Notes under the pieces: generated by a model
Told to the model about the DNA's origin: nothing
The model's input: only the letters and a program-made list of their open reading frames with translations
The model's database searches: none
DNA from: Alphaproteobacteria bacterium
GTDB taxonomy: Bacteria > Pseudomonadota > Alphaproteobacteria > Micropepsales > Micropepsaceae
Direction: 5' to 3'
DNA: 64,000 bases
NCBI GenBank assembly: GCA_947473475.1
Contig: CANJBZ010000020.1
Span: forward strand, 1-64,000
Program-made: the position numbers and the translations under genes
Part shown: in pieces, positions 6,066 to 63,586 of the stretch
How the letters are laid out: each line of letters starts with the position of its first letter
Numbering within the stretch: position 1 is the first letter of the stretch

Positions 6066-6094
6066 GACGCAGGCCGTTAGATGTTGGCGTGGGG

Positions 6095-6236
6095 GATAGA
6101 CCGCCCCCTCACCCTAGCCCTCTCCCCGAAATGGGGAGAGGGAACATGGCGGCGTTTCTTCATCTGAAATGTATTGAGCCTGCCACCCCCTCGCCCCCCG
6201 CAGGGGGAGAGGGTCGGGGTGAGGGGGCGGTCTATC
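6095..6236. repeat. Paired-hairpin repeat (CCCTCTCCCC family)
   Basis: The outer ends GATAGACCGCCCCCTCACC and its complement GGTGAGGGGGCGGTCTATC form an inverted pair. Each arm also carries its own hairpin (CCTCTCCCCgaaatGGGGAGAGG on the left, CCCCCcgcaGGGGG on the right). The roughly 45 bp in the middle are not repeated. A related element, with arms in the opposite order, lies at 63464–63586. Confidence 0.85.
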
Positions 6237-6260
6237 CACCTGTTCAATGCAGCCAATAGT

Positions 6261-6352
6261 GTCATCCCGGAAGCTGCGAAGCGGCTATTCGGGACCCACC
6301 GAGCCGTTTGCGCCGTGGGTCCCGGCTCTCGCTCCGCTCGGCCGGGATGACA
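6261..6352. repeat. GTCATCCCGG palindromic element, empty copy
   Basis: A 92-bp element. The left arm (GTCATCCCGGAAGC..., ending GGGACCCACC) and right arm (GTGGGTCCCGGCTC..., ending GGCCGGGATGACA) are inverted, and each can fold internally. The centre is only about 12 nt. The same two arms bound the GIY-YIG gene at 10931–11322, and an inverted copy lies at 42545–42636. It sits immediately beyond the stop codon of moaE. Confidence 0.88.
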
Positions 6353-7732: not shown

Positions 7733-7855
7733 TCACCGTGACCGGCCTCCGAGCCGGTCATCCAGCAGGCGAGCGTCTGCGAGCCAATGATTCTTTTGCG
7801 CCCGCAGACGCGGGCGCGCTAGGTGGCCGGGTCAAGCCCGGCCATGGTGAGGGTT
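7733..7855. repeat. Paired-hairpin repeat between uvrC and pgsA
   Basis: The left end TCACCGTGACCGG...CCGGTCATCCAGC and right end GCTAGGTGGCCGGG...CCCGGCCATGGTGA are inverted, and each contains a hairpin. A third stem (GCGTCTGCG with CGCAGACGC) occupies the centre. It has the same design as the other elements in this window but an unrelated sequence. I saw no second copy here. Confidence 0.75.
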
Positions 7856-10918: not shown

Positions 10919-10930
10919 ATAAAATGCCTT

Positions 10931-11322
10931 GTCATCCCGGAAGCCGCGCAGCGGCTATCCGGGACCCACCGCGAAACCTGGCGCGATTTGACCAATCAAA
11001 TCGGCCCAGTGCGGGTTGTTCTCTTCAATGAGCGCGCGCTTCCAATCGCGTCGCCACCGCTTCAGAGTTTTCTCCCGGACGATGGCCGCCTCGTAATCGT
11101 CGTACGCTTCCCAATAAACGAGCTTGTTCACGCCATAGCGTTTTGTGAAGCCGGGGGTGACACCCTCCTTATGCTCAGCGACCCGCCGAACAAGATCGTT
11201 GGTCACGCCCACATAGAGCGTACCTTGCGGCTTACTTGCGAGTAAAGCGTCATGAGCGAGTTTGATCCCGCCGTGGGTCCCGGCTCGGCGCGATGCTACC
11301 GCATCGCTTGGCCGGGATGACA
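10931..11322. mobile_element. GTCATCCCGG palindromic element carrying a GIY-YIG gene
   Basis: The left arm at 10931–10970 matches the left arm of the 92-bp element at 6261 with four differences. The right arm at 11273–11322 matches its right end (GTGGGTCCCGGCTC...GGCCGGGATGACAG). Between the arms lies a GIY-YIG nuclease reading frame on the minus strand instead of the roughly 12-nt centre. The stop codon and last residues of that frame (VGPG-stop) are read from the left arm itself. The arrangement resembles a nuclease-bearing element and its shorter derivatives; mobility is inferred, not shown. Confidence 0.7.
10955..11212 (-). CDS. GIY-YIG endonuclease, likely 5'-damaged
   Basis: An 85-residue frame of the small, single-domain GIY-YIG family (UPF0213/YhbQ-like). 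It keeps the second core motif (LYVGVTNDLVRR when read from just upstream), the catalytic glutamate region (AAIVREKTLKRWRR) and the family tail NPHWADL. The usual first strand (a Y-V-Y-x-L type sequence) is missing. The frame runs open upstream as ALLASKPQGTLYVG into the repeat arm without an ATG, so the only in-frame start I find is the internal GTG at 11212. The copy is probably inactive or starts unusually. The C-terminus ends inside the flanking repeat. It probably served the repeat element rather than the cell. Confidence 0.7.
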   Translation of the reverse strand: MGVTNDLVRRVAEHKEGVTPGFTKRYGVNKLVYWEAYDDYEAAIVREKTLKRWRRDWKRALIEENNPHWADLIGQIAPGFAVGPG

Positions 11323-18424: not shown

Positions 18425-18427
18425 CTA

Positions 18428-18565
18428 AACCACCCTCCCCTTGAGGGAGGGTCGAAATTGCGTGAGCGAAGCGGAAGCAATTTCGGGGAGTGGAGCTGTC
18501 TCTCCGAATGTCCCCTCCCCGAAGCGGCTGCGCCGCTTCGACCCTCCCTCAAGGGGATGGTGGTT
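18428..18565. repeat. CACCCTCCCCTTGAGGGAGGG paired-arm repeat
   Basis: The left arm AACCACCCTCCCCTTGAGGG and the right arm CCCTCAAGGGGATGGTGGTT are inverted, with inner stems (GAAGCGG...CCGCTTC-type). The element fills the whole space between the trpS and cutA stop codons. A longer copy of the same family is at 52814–53033. Confidence 0.85.
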
Positions 18566-18910
18566 TCACACCATTACCGGCTGTTCCGTCTGCGCCCGCA
18601 CCCAGGCGAGGTAGTCGCTGGTGCCGCCGTCGATCGGAAGAATGACGAAGCACGGCACTTCGTAGGAATGCACGTTCCAGGCGGCGGCAATGGCTTGGTC
18701 GGCAAGGGACCGCCTCGTCTTGATGAACATGGCGACCTCCGCGGTCTCTTCGCGCTTGTCTTCCCAGGCATAGACGCTGGTCATTGGCGGATAGATGTTC
18801 ACGCAGGCGGCCAGCTTCGCGTCGACCAGCATGCGCGCCGTCTGCAGCGCCAGCTCCTTGCTGGGATAGGTCGAGTACACGAAGCAAAATTCATTGGTCA
18901 GTTCGGCCAT
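18566..18910 (-). CDS. cutA: Divalent-ion tolerance protein CutA
   Basis: A 114-residue trimeric ferredoxin-like protein of the CutA1 family, linked to tolerance of copper and other divalent cations, though its biochemical role is unsettled. The family pattern is clear: YSTYPSKELALQTARML, KLAACVNIYP, SVYAWEDK, EVAMFIKT and HSYEVPCFVILPI. The ATG at 18910 gives the normal family length; the frame runs open upstream into the GST gene without meaning. It lies just downstream of the GST gene on the same strand, with 5 nt between them. Confidence 0.92.
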   Translation of the reverse strand: MAELTNEFCFVYSTYPSKELALQTARMLVDAKLAACVNIYPPMTSVYAWEDKREETAEVAMFIKTRRSLADQAIAAAWNVHSYEVPCFVILPIDGGTSDYLAWVRAQTEQPVMV

Positions 18911-21335: not shown

Positions 21336-21438
21336 GTGTCATGGCCCGCAAAAGCGGGCCATCCAGGCGGACTTGACGGATTCATCCGCACGCGGACGCG
21401 TGCGTGCTGGATGGCCCAGTCTTGCAGGGCCATGACAC
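21336..21438. repeat. GTCATGGCCCGC paired-hairpin repeat
   Basis: GTGTCATGGCCC at the left and GGGCCATGACAC at the right are inverted. The left arm holds the stem GGCCCGCaaaaGCGGGCC and the middle holds a stem CGCACGCG/CGCGTGCG. It fills the space between the convergent arsC-like and proC genes. It has the same layout as the GTCATCCCGG element but a different sequence. Confidence 0.85.
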
Positions 21439-35179: not shown

Positions 35180-35797
35180 ATGACGCTGGTGCTCGATAGC
35201 CCGCGGCGCGAATCGACCGTCCGCGCACTCCGGCCCGCACGCATTATCCTGGTGCGGCACGGCAAACCCGCGATTCCCACAAACACGCGGACAAGTCATC
35301 TCGGTTTTCGGCGCTACATCGATGCCTATCAGGAATCGGGACTCGATCCGCAAAGCGCCCCGCCGGACGAGCTGCTCGATTTGGTTAAAGGCCTGGATGC
35401 CGTGTTCACGAGCGGATTTCCGCGTTCCAACGACAGCGCGCGCACGCTGCTTCCGGAGGCCGAAATCATTGCCGACCCGCTGTTCGCCGAAGCTCCGCTG
35501 GCGGCGCCGCGCATCCCACTGGTCAAAATGAAGGTGCCGGTTTGGGCCGTCATGGCCCGCATTCTCTGGCATGCGGGGTATCACCCCGAGATCGAAAATT
35601 ACCGGCGCGCGAAAATCCGCGCGGCACAGGCAGCGGACATCTTGCTGAGCCGGGCCGAAGCCAATGACGGCGTCGCCGTTCTGGTCGCGCACGGCTATTT
35701 CAACGCCATGATCGGGCGCGTGCTCACGAAGCGCGGCTTTTCCCGCACCGGCGCCCACCGCGTCCGCTTCTGGAACGCGGTGATCTACGACCGTTAG
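35180..35797 (+). CDS. Histidine phosphatase family protein
   Basis: A 205-residue protein of the phosphoglycerate-mutase-like superfamily. The catalytic RHG motif is ILVRHGKP near 27–34, and the second histidine is in VLVAHGYFNAMIG near 169. The middle is helical (RRAKIRAAQAADILL). Substrate unknown; a phosphatase rather than a mutase is likely because of the short insert. The stop TAG is the first base triplet of the repeat that follows. Confidence 0.82.
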   Translation: MTLVLDSPRRESTVRALRPARIILVRHGKPAIPTNTRTSHLGFRRYIDAYQESGLDPQSAPPDELLDLVKGLDAVFTSGFPRSNDSARTLLPEAEIIADPLFAEAPLAAPRIPLVKMKVPVWAVMARILWHAGYHPEIENYRRAKIRAAQAADILLSRAEANDGVAVLVAHGYFNAMIGRVLTKRGFSRTGAHRVRFWNAVIYDR

Positions 35798-35899
35798 AGC
35801 GCAATCCGACGAAGTGGACGCCGGTTCGCCGTTAGATTGCGCGGCAAACCAAGGAATCTAGAGCATGATCCGATTCATTTCGATCGGATCATGCTCTAG
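35795..35899. repeat. CTAG-ended two-hairpin repeat, copy 1
   Basis: The element begins TAGAGCGCAATCCG and ends GGATCATGCTCTAG. Its first half folds between GCGCAATC and GATTGCGC; its second half is a near-perfect stem CTAGAGCATGATCCGAT / ATCGGATCATGCTCTAG. Its first three bases are the stop codon of the phosphatase, and the nitroreductase stop lies one base beyond its end. Confidence 0.92.
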
Positions 35900-35900
35900 C

Positions 35901-36494
35901 CTAAAACCGCGTGGTAATCGCCTCGACCTTGGGGCGCGGACGGTCTTCCAGCGCATCGACGGGATGGCCGAGATAGATGAATCCGGCAACCCTCTCCGTC
36001 ACTTTCAGGCCCATCTTGTCCATTACCCGGGGATGGTAGGCGCACCATTCCGTAAGCCAATTGGCAACAAAGCCCATGGCGTGTGCGGCCGTGAGCATGT
36101 TCATGCAGACAGCGCCGGCCGAGAGCTCCTGTTCCCAGAGCGGAATGGGCATCTGCTCCCTCGTGCGGCTTACCACGGCAACAACCACGGGAGCGCGCAG
36201 AAACCGGTTGCGCTCCTGCGTAATGCGTTCGGCCGAAACATCCGGCGTGCCGGCAACCACTTCGGCCAGGATTGCACCCATTCGCGTGCGCCCCTCGCCT
36301 TCAAACACGATGAAGCGCCAGGGGGCCAGTTTCCCGTGATCGGGTACACGTATGCCCGCCGCGAGAATGCTGCGGAGCTGGTCAGGATCGGGACCGGGGC
36401 CCTTCATGGCCTTGGCAGAGCCGGAGCGGCGGCTCATGATCAAATCGAGTGCGTTTGGAACCGGAATATTCAGAGTAGCGGGATAATCAGACAT
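35901..36494 (-). CDS. Nitroreductase family protein
   Basis: A 197-residue FMN-dependent oxidoreductase. Features are the N-terminal MSRRSGSAKAM FMN loop, LAPWRFIVFEGEGR, the helix around LSAGAVCMNMLTAAHAMGF and the late GFIYLGHP loop. It may reduce nitroaromatics, quinones or flavin-type substrates. The ATG at 36494 begins MSDYPAT; a longer frame runs antisense to cysE and is discarded. It is divergent from cysE with a 186-bp shared upstream region. Confidence 0.87.
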   Translation of the reverse strand: MSDYPATLNIPVPNALDLIMSRRSGSAKAMKGPGPDPDQLRSILAAGIRVPDHGKLAPWRFIVFEGEGRTRMGAILAEVVAGTPDVSAERITQERNRFLRAPVVVAVVSRTREQMPIPLWEQELSAGAVCMNMLTAAHAMGFVANWLTEWCAYHPRVMDKMGLKVTERVAGFIYLGHPVDALEDRPRPKVEAITTRF

Positions 36495-36680: not shown

Positions 36681-37514
36681 ATGAGCCGGGATACGAACAC
36701 CCGAATCGCCGAAAAGGTCGCAAGCTGCGACCCCATCTGGACCGCGCTGCGCGCGCAGGCCCAGCAGCTTGCCGAATCCGAGCCGGAGCTTTCGAGCTTC
36801 GCGCACGCGACCATTTTGAAGCACGACCGCCTCGAAGAAGCGATTTCCTACCATCTGGCCAAGAAGATCGGCGGCGAAGACCTGTCGCCGATGCAGGTCC
36901 ATGAAATCTTCGAGGAGGCGTTCGCGGCGGACCCGGCGATCGCCGGCGCGGTCAGGGCCGACCTTTCGGCGATCTATGAGCGCGACCCGGCCTGCCATTC
37001 CTATCTGCAGGCCTTTCTGTTCTTCAAAGGGTTTCACTCGCTCGAAAGCCACAGGATAGCGCACTGGCTCTGGAAAGGCGGCCGTCATTGGCTGGCGTAT
37101 TTTTTCCAGAATCGCGTTTCGGACCTCTTCGCGGTCGACATCCATCCGGCGGCGCCTTTCGGGCGCGGCATCTTCATCGACCATGGCACGGGAATCGTTA
37201 TCGGTGAGACCGCCGTCATCGATGACGACGTCTCGATGCTGCACGGTGTGAACCTCGGAGGTACGGGTAAGGAAAGCGGCGACCGCCATCCCAAGGTGCG
37301 GCGCGGCGTTCTGCTCGGAGCGGGCGCAAAGGTTCTGGGCAATATCGAGATCGGCGAATACAGCCGTGTCGGTTCGGGCAGCGTGGTGCTGAAGCCTGTG
37401 CCGCCGCGCACGACGGTTGCGGGCGTTCCGGCGCGCGTCATCGGCAAAGCGGGCTCGGAACGGCCATCCCAAGACATGGATCAATCCCTGCGGGAGTGCG
37501 ACCTTTCCGGTTAG
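36681..37514 (+). CDS. cysE: Serine O-acetyltransferase
   Basis: A 277-residue enzyme that acetylates L-serine with acetyl-CoA, the first step of cysteine synthesis. An N-terminal helical domain (residues 1–140) precedes left-handed beta-helix hexapeptide repeats with DIHPAAPFGRGIFIDHGTGIVIGET and GGTGKESGDRHPKV (His active site). The C-terminal tail ends in PSQDMDQSLRECDLSG rather than the usual ...I, which normally docks into cysteine synthase CysK. The stop TAG is the start of the next repeat copy, which may have trimmed or changed the tail. Confidence 0.93.
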   Translation: MSRDTNTRIAEKVASCDPIWTALRAQAQQLAESEPELSSFAHATILKHDRLEEAISYHLAKKIGGEDLSPMQVHEIFEEAFAADPAIAGAVRADLSAIYERDPACHSYLQAFLFFKGFHSLESHRIAHWLWKGGRHWLAYFFQNRVSDLFAVDIHPAAPFGRGIFIDHGTGIVIGETAVIDDDVSMLHGVNLGGTGKESGDRHPKVRRGVLLGAGAKVLGNIEIGEYSRVGSGSVVLKPVPPRTTVAGVPARVIGKAGSERPSQDMDQSLRECDLSG

Positions 37515-37616
37515 AGCGCAATCCGGCGAAGTGGACGCCGGTTCGCCGTTAGATTGCGCGACAAACCTGGAAATCTAGAGCATGATCTGATTCAATCTGA
37601 TCAGATCATGCTCTAG
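37512..37616. repeat. CTAG-ended two-hairpin repeat, copy 2
   Basis: Starts TAGAGCGCAATCCGGCGAAG and ends ATCAGATCATGCTCTAG, same orientation as copy 1. As in copy 1, its first three bases form the stop codon of the preceding gene, here cysE. It differs from copy 1 at about ten positions, including paired changes in the second stem. Confidence 0.92.
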
Positions 37617-37747
37617 TCTCAAACGCTTGACCGATCCGCGTTCGCATGCGACGTGACCATCGGATCCTAAACCGGCGCCCCTAAGACGGTTCCAGTTTTG
37701 GTTCGAAACGAACGGCAATGAATTCCGGACAGTAGGGAGCGAAGCTT

Positions 37748-39065: not shown

Positions 39066-39105
39066 TGCGACCACTGAATACCAAGCAAGATAACACTGCG
39101 CCGCG

Positions 39106-39211
39106 CTAGAGCGTGATCCGATCAAACGGAATCGGATCATGCTCTAGATTCCTTAGTTTGGCGCGCAATCTAACGACGAACCGGCGTCCACTTCGTCGGA
39201 TTGCGCTCTAG
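39106..39211. repeat. CTAG-ended two-hairpin repeat, copy 3 (inverted)
   Basis: Reads CTAGAGCGTGATCCGATC...GCAATCTAACG...TTGCGCTCTAG, the reverse orientation of copies 1 and 2. It lies between the RES toxin stop and the next minus-strand gene, 40 nt after the toxin stop, not at a stop codon. Confidence 0.9.
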
Positions 39212-39229
39212 CGTCACATTGTCCATCCA

Positions 39230-42504: not shown

Positions 42505-42544
42505 TCGCGCTCTGTGCACCGGCATTTGCCCGCACGAACAATTT

Positions 42545-42636
42545 GTCATCCCGGCCAAGCGAAGCGCGCGCCGGGACCCACTCTGCAGCTTTCGTGGTGG
42601 TTCCCGGATAGCCGCTGCGCGGTTTCCTGGATGACA
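42545..42636. repeat. GTCATCCCGG palindromic element, inverted empty copy
   Basis: The left end GTCATCCCGGCCAAGCGAAG corresponds to the reverse complement of the right arm of the GIY-YIG element. The right end GTTCCCGGATAGCCGCTGCG...TGGATGAC corresponds to the reverse complement of its left arm, with a few changes. The centre is only about 12 nt (TCTGCAGCTTTC). It is therefore an empty copy in opposite orientation. Confidence 0.85.
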
Positions 42637-52813: not shown

Positions 52814-53033
52814 TCACCCACCCTCCCCTTGAGGGAGGGTCGAACGCGACGTAGCCCAAAGGGCGAAGCCGGGTTCGGGGAGGGGATGTTGCGGTGTTCC
52901 AGCGCGCTGTAAAAAGTCCGCGCACGAATTTCGTTTAACTGACAAAGTCTCGGTTCGGTTTTGCGTGGAGGAAAACGTCCCCTCCCCGAACCGGCTTTGC
53001 CGGTTCGACTCTCCCTCAAGGGGAGGGTGGGAT
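52814..53033. repeat. CACCCTCCCC paired-arm repeat, long copy
   Basis: The left arm CCCACCCTCCCCTTGAGGGA and right arm TCCCTCAAGGGGAGGGTGGG are inverted, with inner stems around AACGCGACGTAGCCC and GAACCGGCTTTGCCGGTTCG. About 100 bp of unrelated sequence lie between the arms. Same family as 18428–18565. The TPR-methyltransferase stop at 53033 abuts its right end. Confidence 0.85.
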
Positions 53034-62481: not shown

Positions 62482-62695
62482 GGTTCACGCGGAGGCGCGG
62501 AGGAAGAAGAAGGGGAACCACAAAGGGCACAAAGAAGACACAAAGGTCACAAAGGAAATTTAGGCGCGCTTTGCGCGCCAGCATTCTTCGCGCAGCAGTG
62601 ATCGGTGCAAGCAAACTAACTTCGTGTTCGTTGTGTCTCCTTCGTGTCCTTTGTGGTTTCCCTTCTTCTTCTCCGCGCTCTTCGCGGCTCCGCGA
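62482..62695. repeat. Long imperfect inverted repeat, 65-bp arms
   Basis: The left arm GGTTCACGCGGAGGCGCGGA...GGAACCACAAAGGGCAC and the right arm TGTCCTTTGTGGTTTCCC...CCGCGAG are imperfect inverted copies of each other over about 65 bp. A GC-rich hairpin (GGCGCGCTTTGCGCGCC) lies at the centre. No gene is inside. The CACAAAG/CTTTGTG blocks repeat within each arm. Confidence 0.85.
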
Positions 62696-63459: not shown

Positions 63460-63463
63460 AATT

Positions 63464-63586
63464 TCCCTCTCCCCTTTTCGGGGAGAGGGTCAGGGTGAGG
63501 GGGCGGTCTAACCGCAACAACGATTCGTACGGCGGATAGAACTCCCCCTCACCCCGGCCCTCTCCCCCGCTGGGGGAGAGGGGGCG
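63464..63586. repeat. CCCTCTCCCC paired-hairpin repeat, inverted copy
   Basis: The left half CCCTCTCCCCttttCGGGGAGAGGG runs into GGTGAGGGGGCGGTCTA, and the right half (CCCCCTCACCCC...CTCTCCCCC...GGGGGAGAGG) mirrors it. Its outer and inner ends are swapped relative to 6095–6236. The right half forms the 3' end of the monooxygenase reading frame. Confidence 0.85.

Follow-up and report, generated by a model that had tools for sequence, protein, structure and literature searches.

GIY-YIG nucleases as candidate partners of CGTC-tagged REP dimers in a Micropepsaceae genome

REP families in the window and across the genome

The window, the whole 64,000-nt stretch analysed (contig CANJBZ010000020.1 of an alphaproteobacterium of the Micropepsaceae), carries two gene-less dimers with the TCCCGG stem of a CGTC-type REP, one at positions 6260–6352 on the forward strand and the other at 42544–42636 on the reverse strand. 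Both are built as TGTCATCCCGG, a variable hairpin, CCGGGACCCACC, a centre of about 14 bp, GGTGGGTCCCGG, a second variable hairpin and CCGGGATGACA, and an arm of the second copy differs by one base (CCAGG). Two short copies at these sites had been described in a sequence-only reading, and their existence was confirmed with slightly revised ends: the terminal repeat TGTCAT...ATGACA gains one base pair over the earlier count, and each dimer measures 93 bp. The first dimer, whose best match is 93% identical, was predicted to fold as one long hairpin (z −4.26). The few changes between arms reported earlier did not hold, as the window pair is only 79% identical when compared as inverted repeats; the two orientations mean little in a near-palindromic element.

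The same outer REPs surround a GIY-YIG gene at positions 10930–11322 on the reverse strand, so that, as had been proposed, the short and gene-bearing forms have their ends in common. On the 3′ side of the gene, the arm (GTCATCCCGG, hairpin, CCGGGACCCACC) occupies 10930–10971 on the forward strand; the arm on the 5′ side occupies 11273–11322 on the reverse strand. The gene itself (10964–11275, reverse strand) was recognized by PF01541 with an E value of 2.5e-13 and 50.5 bits, against a gathering cut-off of 22.6. When aligned with a homologue (L089) whose REP–gene junction matches the window copy directly, and which served as reference for this call, it was found to lack both an ATG and 9 nt of the GIY half-motif, those that encode a conserved F-V-Y. 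The window copy thus no longer has the complete catalytic set, and the gene is a pseudogene. A 4-nt frameshift was considered as the cause and rejected, given that the alignment with L089 displays a 9-nt in-frame loss and no start codon. With its nuclease copy inactivated, the TCCCGG family may no longer be mobile in the present genome.

Copy numbers were determined by pattern and BLAST searches. The GTCATCCCGG signature occurs 79 times in the 3.87-Mb genome (40 forward, 39 reverse), while the reversed control gave no occurrence. From these sites, 32 complete gene-less dimers of 88–117 bp were extracted, which raises the count from the two copies first noted to dozens. The proposal that the short form is copied as a whole unit was supported. 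Twenty-five of the 32 lie outside long ORFs, where only 17% of random positions fall (83% being inside). The hairpin tips are highly diverse (47 distinct tips among 57 parsed halves) and retain their pairing, with a mean of −9.2 kcal/mol compared with −3.7 for shuffled tips, and pairs such as AGCCGC/GCGGCT and CGGCGC/GCGCCG represent compensatory changes. Folded as a whole, the elements form one long hairpin from which side hairpins branch (z −3.0 to −9.1). Among the 32 copies, flanks showed no excess identity at 2–9 bp that would indicate a target-site duplication, and by inspection the centre of about 14 bp bears no visible resemblance to the GIY-YIG gene. Of the idea that the short form is a MITE-like derivative, mobility was supported, while a MITE in the strict sense was not, there being neither a target-site duplication nor a visible gene remnant in the centre.

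Two further REP families are present. A dimer of the second (GTCATGGCCCGC stem, 32 genome sites) lies at 21337–21437 on the forward strand, and one of the third (CATGGCCGGGCTTG stem, 17 genome sites) at 7734–7849 on the reverse strand, all three families thus having dimers inside the window. The gene-bearing copy of the second family was located at the end of contig C1 (C1:256719), where a GTCATGGCCCGC REP adjoins a GIY-YIG gene with an internal stop, and that of the third at C3:82262, where CATGGCCGGGCTTG REPs bracket an intact GIY-YIG gene. This gives the genome one nuclease gene for each of its three REP families; a fourth stem, GTCATGGTCCGC, has zero sites and zero nuclease genes in this genome. 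A search for the Y1 transposase (PF01797) gave no match in this genome or in the REP-rich relatives G016 (125 REP sites) and G031 (296), and a RAYT therefore cannot be the local mobiliser.

By their sequence organisation, the window repeats belong, with a stem of variant form, to the CGTC-tagged REPs of Di Nocera, De Gregorio and Rocco (2013; PMC3733652). This group includes the Neisseria dRS3 and the Rickettsia RPE-4 and RPE-6 repeats and is centred on Alphaproteobacteria, as is the case here. Its members carry a CGTC/TGTC tag at one end, a stem starting with AT and a CCA tail, and occur mostly as inverted dimers. The window copies have TGTCAT at both outer ends (the described tags being CGTC, TGTC or CCTC), the unpaired CCA tail is found as CCGGGACCCACC in nearly all copies, and the 32 complete dimers have the inverted organisation. 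In contrast to the published group, the stem of the window family, CCCGG, is short and carries a nested, highly variable hairpin tip: AT is present, the stem has about 6–7 bp, and the variable hairpin stands where a loop of 4–5 bp is typical. The other two families fit the AT-start stem of 8–9 bp with a loop of 4–5 bp (TGGCCCGC with 4 nt and TGGCCGGG with 5 nt). The TCCCGG dimers are also inverted, hairpin-forming and extragenic REP doublets, as are the REPINs associated with RAYTs (Bertels and Rainey 2011; PMC3116915), and judged by sequence the architecture of the short elements is that of a REP dimer, REPIN-like.

Nuclease genes, their arms and their stems

The analysis covered 142 homologous nuclease genes, 62 from 61 related genomes (35 of which gave a match) and 80 from named genomes. 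REPs with GTC pointing outward were found on both sides of 78 of the 142 genes and on one side only of another 38, whereas 7 of 383 control ORFs had REPs on both sides (Fisher p about 1e-44), and REP density beside nuclease genes was about 50 times the background. Scoring of inverted repeats without any motif placed 39 of 62 and 54 of 79 loci above the 99th percentile of random placements. The same stem was present in both arms at 65 of the 78 loci, compared with a mean of 14 and a maximum of 23 after shuffling. Named loci with REPs came from 16 named phyla, represented outside Pseudomonadota mostly by single metagenome contigs. The explicit CGTC-REP motif found no REP at 26 of the 142 genes, partly because it misses head variants such as CCATGG.

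Among the species listed in PMC3733652, gene-bearing copies with stem-matched arms were found in Azospirillum lipoferum 4B and Sinorhizobium meliloti, and in Novosphingobium aromaticivorans the arms are arranged in the same way but have another tail. In Neisseria gonorrhoeae, an unannotated GIY-YIG homologue (NZ_CP119142.1, 1881719–1881976) lies between pairs of dRS3 (CGTC-1) repeats, in the same dimer–gene–dimer layout as in A. lipoferum 4B; this 2.17-Mb record is labelled a plasmid and is chromosome-sized. On plasmid p1 of the cyanobacterium Planktothrix agardhii, another homologue lies between TGTCATTCTGAG...CAGGATGACA inverted repeats and adjoins MmeI-type and DISARM defence genes.

The REP stem co-varies with the nuclease. 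Mapped on the nuclease tree, many forks of which are unresolved, the stem required 39 changes, compared with 58 when labels were shuffled (0 of 200 shufflings as low), and a Mantel test gave r 0.152, higher than all 999 permutations. Nuclease pairs within one genome had different stems in 19 of 20 cases. Copy numbers were then compared using exact arms and subtracting the gene's own arms, as allowing one mismatch would mix the GTCATGGTCCGC and GTCATGGCCCGC families. Genomes whose nuclease has the exact arm held more REP copies for GTCATGGCCCGC (p 1.1e-4) and GTCATCCCGG (p 0.0011); for GTCATGGTCCGC the value of p 0.041 rests on two carriers, and for CATGGCCGGGCTTG the difference was not significant (p 0.13). 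A cognate nuclease was not detected for REP families in G016 (38 and 40 sites), G001 (22) and G006 (21), for which losses or trans-acting relatives must therefore be assumed.

The homologues are proteins of about 95–115 aa with invariant Y9, Y20, G22, R30, H34, E67 and N86. The predicted structure (mean pLDDT 85.6) has as its nearest fold the UPF0213 protein 1zg2, followed by Slx1, for which one of the matched structure entries names action on branched DNA in its title; a similar activity on branched DNA may be conjectured from this model for the REP-linked nuclease. UPF0213 proteins (structures 1zg2 and 1ywl), which are likewise small single-domain GIY-YIG proteins, are the best match in both sequence and fold. 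Neither PHROGs, which gave no match, nor NCBIfam named the nuclease; all that the latter yielded was a weak score against a group I intron endonuclease model, in 17 of 25 members.

Occupied and empty sites and the candidate mobiliser

Recent movement had been suggested earlier, to be refuted by finding every copy at the same location in distant relatives. This refutation failed and mobility was supported: the congener G001 is empty at each of the three window positions. At the sites of both short elements G001 has 10–19 bp, with 10 bp in place of about 149 bp at 42544–42636, and at the gene-bearing site it has 31 bp; the flanking genes are the same as in the window and the flanks are 72–77% identical. 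The element at 6260 and the gene-bearing element are both absent from G005, and the latter is also absent from G006, leaving 18–31 bp between the same two convergent genes in G001, G005 and G006. In G010, a nuclease element with a different stem, TCGCCGGG, occupies the same intergenic spot and adjoins the same gene as the window gene-bearing copy (contig C11, near 149832), an apparent independent insertion.

Similar pairs of sites were found in other genera. The gene-bearing element is present in seven Sphingobium plasmids and missing from four, two of which still have a double-headed palindrome of 28 bp there, and Sinorhizobium sp. K101 has such a palindrome where S. meliloti Ak57 has a gene remnant between REPs. 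A. lipoferum 4B carries the element between sufB and sufC, whereas A. ramasamyi and A. oryzae lack it (flanks 96–98% identical); this site yields no base-exact footprint because the flanking intergenic DNA has diverged. These pairs show gain or loss between lineages, the direction of which is not fixed at every site. Double-headed palindromes of 28 bp (GTCATGGCCCGCNNNNGCGGGCCATGAC) also occur in the genome under study (C15:54282–54309), with similar ones in G001, G003, G004, G010, G033 and G035; they number 1–4 per genome, are found only in 7 of 61 genomes, and may be collapsed dimers or target sites.

The CGTC-tagged REPs were described as having no dedicated transposase, their links to transposase genes being only fortuitous, and the question of their mover was raised in the same paper (PMC3733652). 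In contrast to that description, a GIY-YIG gene is flanked here by stem-matched CGTC REPs. The arrangement resembles that of REPINs and RAYTs, in which the partner gene is flanked by the same REPs and co-resident families have different partners; it differs in the tag (TGTC/CGTC here, GTAG there) and in the partner, a GIY-YIG nuclease here and a Y1 HUH transposase there (PMC3116915), no Y1 gene being present in the genome. What appears to be new is the type of enzyme with which these REP elements are partnered. A search of freely available journal full texts found no published link between a GIY-YIG gene and REPs, which is weak evidence of novelty.

We consider the GIY-YIG nuclease a strong candidate for the enzyme that spreads CGTC-tagged REPs. 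The short elements are probably non-autonomous REP dimers spread in trans by a nuclease whose gene lies between the same REPs in a rare copy, an organisation like that of RAYTs and REPINs with an unrelated enzyme. On balance, we also favour the broader proposal that GIY-YIG nucleases are the missing mobilisers of CGTC-tagged REPs, forming a second REP-mobilising system of an origin independent of RAYTs that extends over many phyla, with one nuclease per family and a co-evolving stem specificity. In the mechanism that we infer, a dimer that becomes single-stranded or extruded would form a hairpin or cruciform through its inverted arms; the nuclease, with its fold resembling the structure-selective Slx1, would recognise the cognate stem and cut near the GTCAT tags; and the unit, once released, would enter new, chiefly intergenic sites by copying or joining, with no target-site duplication. 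Recognition of the DNA, its cleavage, and the copying and integration of the unit are the conjectural part of this scheme, which builds on the observed anatomy, copy number, association, arm matching, co-variation of nuclease and stem, and empty sites. In this way the nuclease could mobilise, in trans, numerous gene-less dimers besides the element that encodes it, as RAYTs do with REPINs.

The main alternative, which we regard as unlikely and still the most serious, sees the nuclease as a homing endonuclease of the free-standing type, a parasite of REP palindromes, which cuts palindromes or dimers already in place and copies its own gene into them, the REPs spreading by other means. GIY-YIG is a classical homing nuclease domain, the gene may lie inside the very sequence that its product recognises, the weak intron endonuclease matches of 17 of 25 members point the same way, and stem specificity and arm matching would be expected here too. 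Moreover, a 28-bp palindrome facing REP–gene–REP at two orthologous sites, in Sphingobium and Sinorhizobium, is what an empty and an occupied homing site should look like; however, such palindromes could equally have arisen by deletion between the stem repeats that the two arms have in direct orientation. A homing gene should also fill many sites, whereas there is one gene per up to 148 site pairs in G031, two genes with a common stem were found in only 1 of 20 within-genome pairs, and at the site of the window gene neither the gene nor its arms are present in congeners. The nuclease further departs from GIY-YIG homing endonucleases in having one gene and many gene-less units per family, in not being intron-borne, and in consisting of a single domain with no separate DNA-binding part.

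It is still less probable that the nuclease is a structure-specific housekeeping enzyme kept near REPs, where it trims cruciforms or REP transcripts, and that REPs multiply by replication errors alone. The resemblance to Slx1, which acts on branched DNA, and the persistence of gene-less dimers here though their cognate gene is dead would fit this explanation, but a host enzyme would need no gene between stem-matched REPs, nor one for each REP family, and close relatives, among them Azospirillum with flanks about 97% identical, lack the gene-bearing element at the corresponding site. Finally, the short elements, which are non-coding, bounded by terminal inverted repeats, numerous and biased towards intergenic DNA (25 of 32), could be MITEs of the ordinary kind, belonging to a DDE or Y1 transposon, with the GIY-YIG gene as a chance passenger; we hold this to be very improbable, given that there is neither a target-site duplication nor a Y1 transposase in the genome, and that the association with the nuclease recurs across 142 genes (p about 1e-44).

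CGTC-tagged REPs are among the commonest repeats of Alphaproteobacteria, and a stem-matched nuclease partner makes the question of their mover directly testable. If the proposed role is correct, the REP/REPIN lifestyle would have arisen with two unrelated enzymes, and many proteins with no annotation beyond 'GIY-YIG nuclease family protein' would gain a proposed function.

Other repeats in the window

Several further repeats were observed in the window. The 6089–6240 stretch and 63463–63576 form a separate repeat family with inverted ends (GGGGGATAGACCGCCCCCTCACCC...GGGTGAGGGGGCGGTCTATCC); the first copy adjoins the REP dimer at 6260 and, like it, is absent from the matching short intergenic stretch in G001 and G005. 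Three copies of a 105–115 bp repeat, 88–93% alike and in both orientations, lie at 35793–35907, 37510–37624 and 39105–39213 and end in the long palindrome CTAGAGCATGATCCGATTCATTTCGATCGGATCATGCTCTAG. Units bounded by inverted CCACCCTCCCCTTGAGGGAGGGTCGAA repeats were found at 18427–18566 and 52817–53031, with 27 bp identical between them, and an inverted repeat at 62503–62671 has 59-nt arms, 81% complementary and 51 nt apart.
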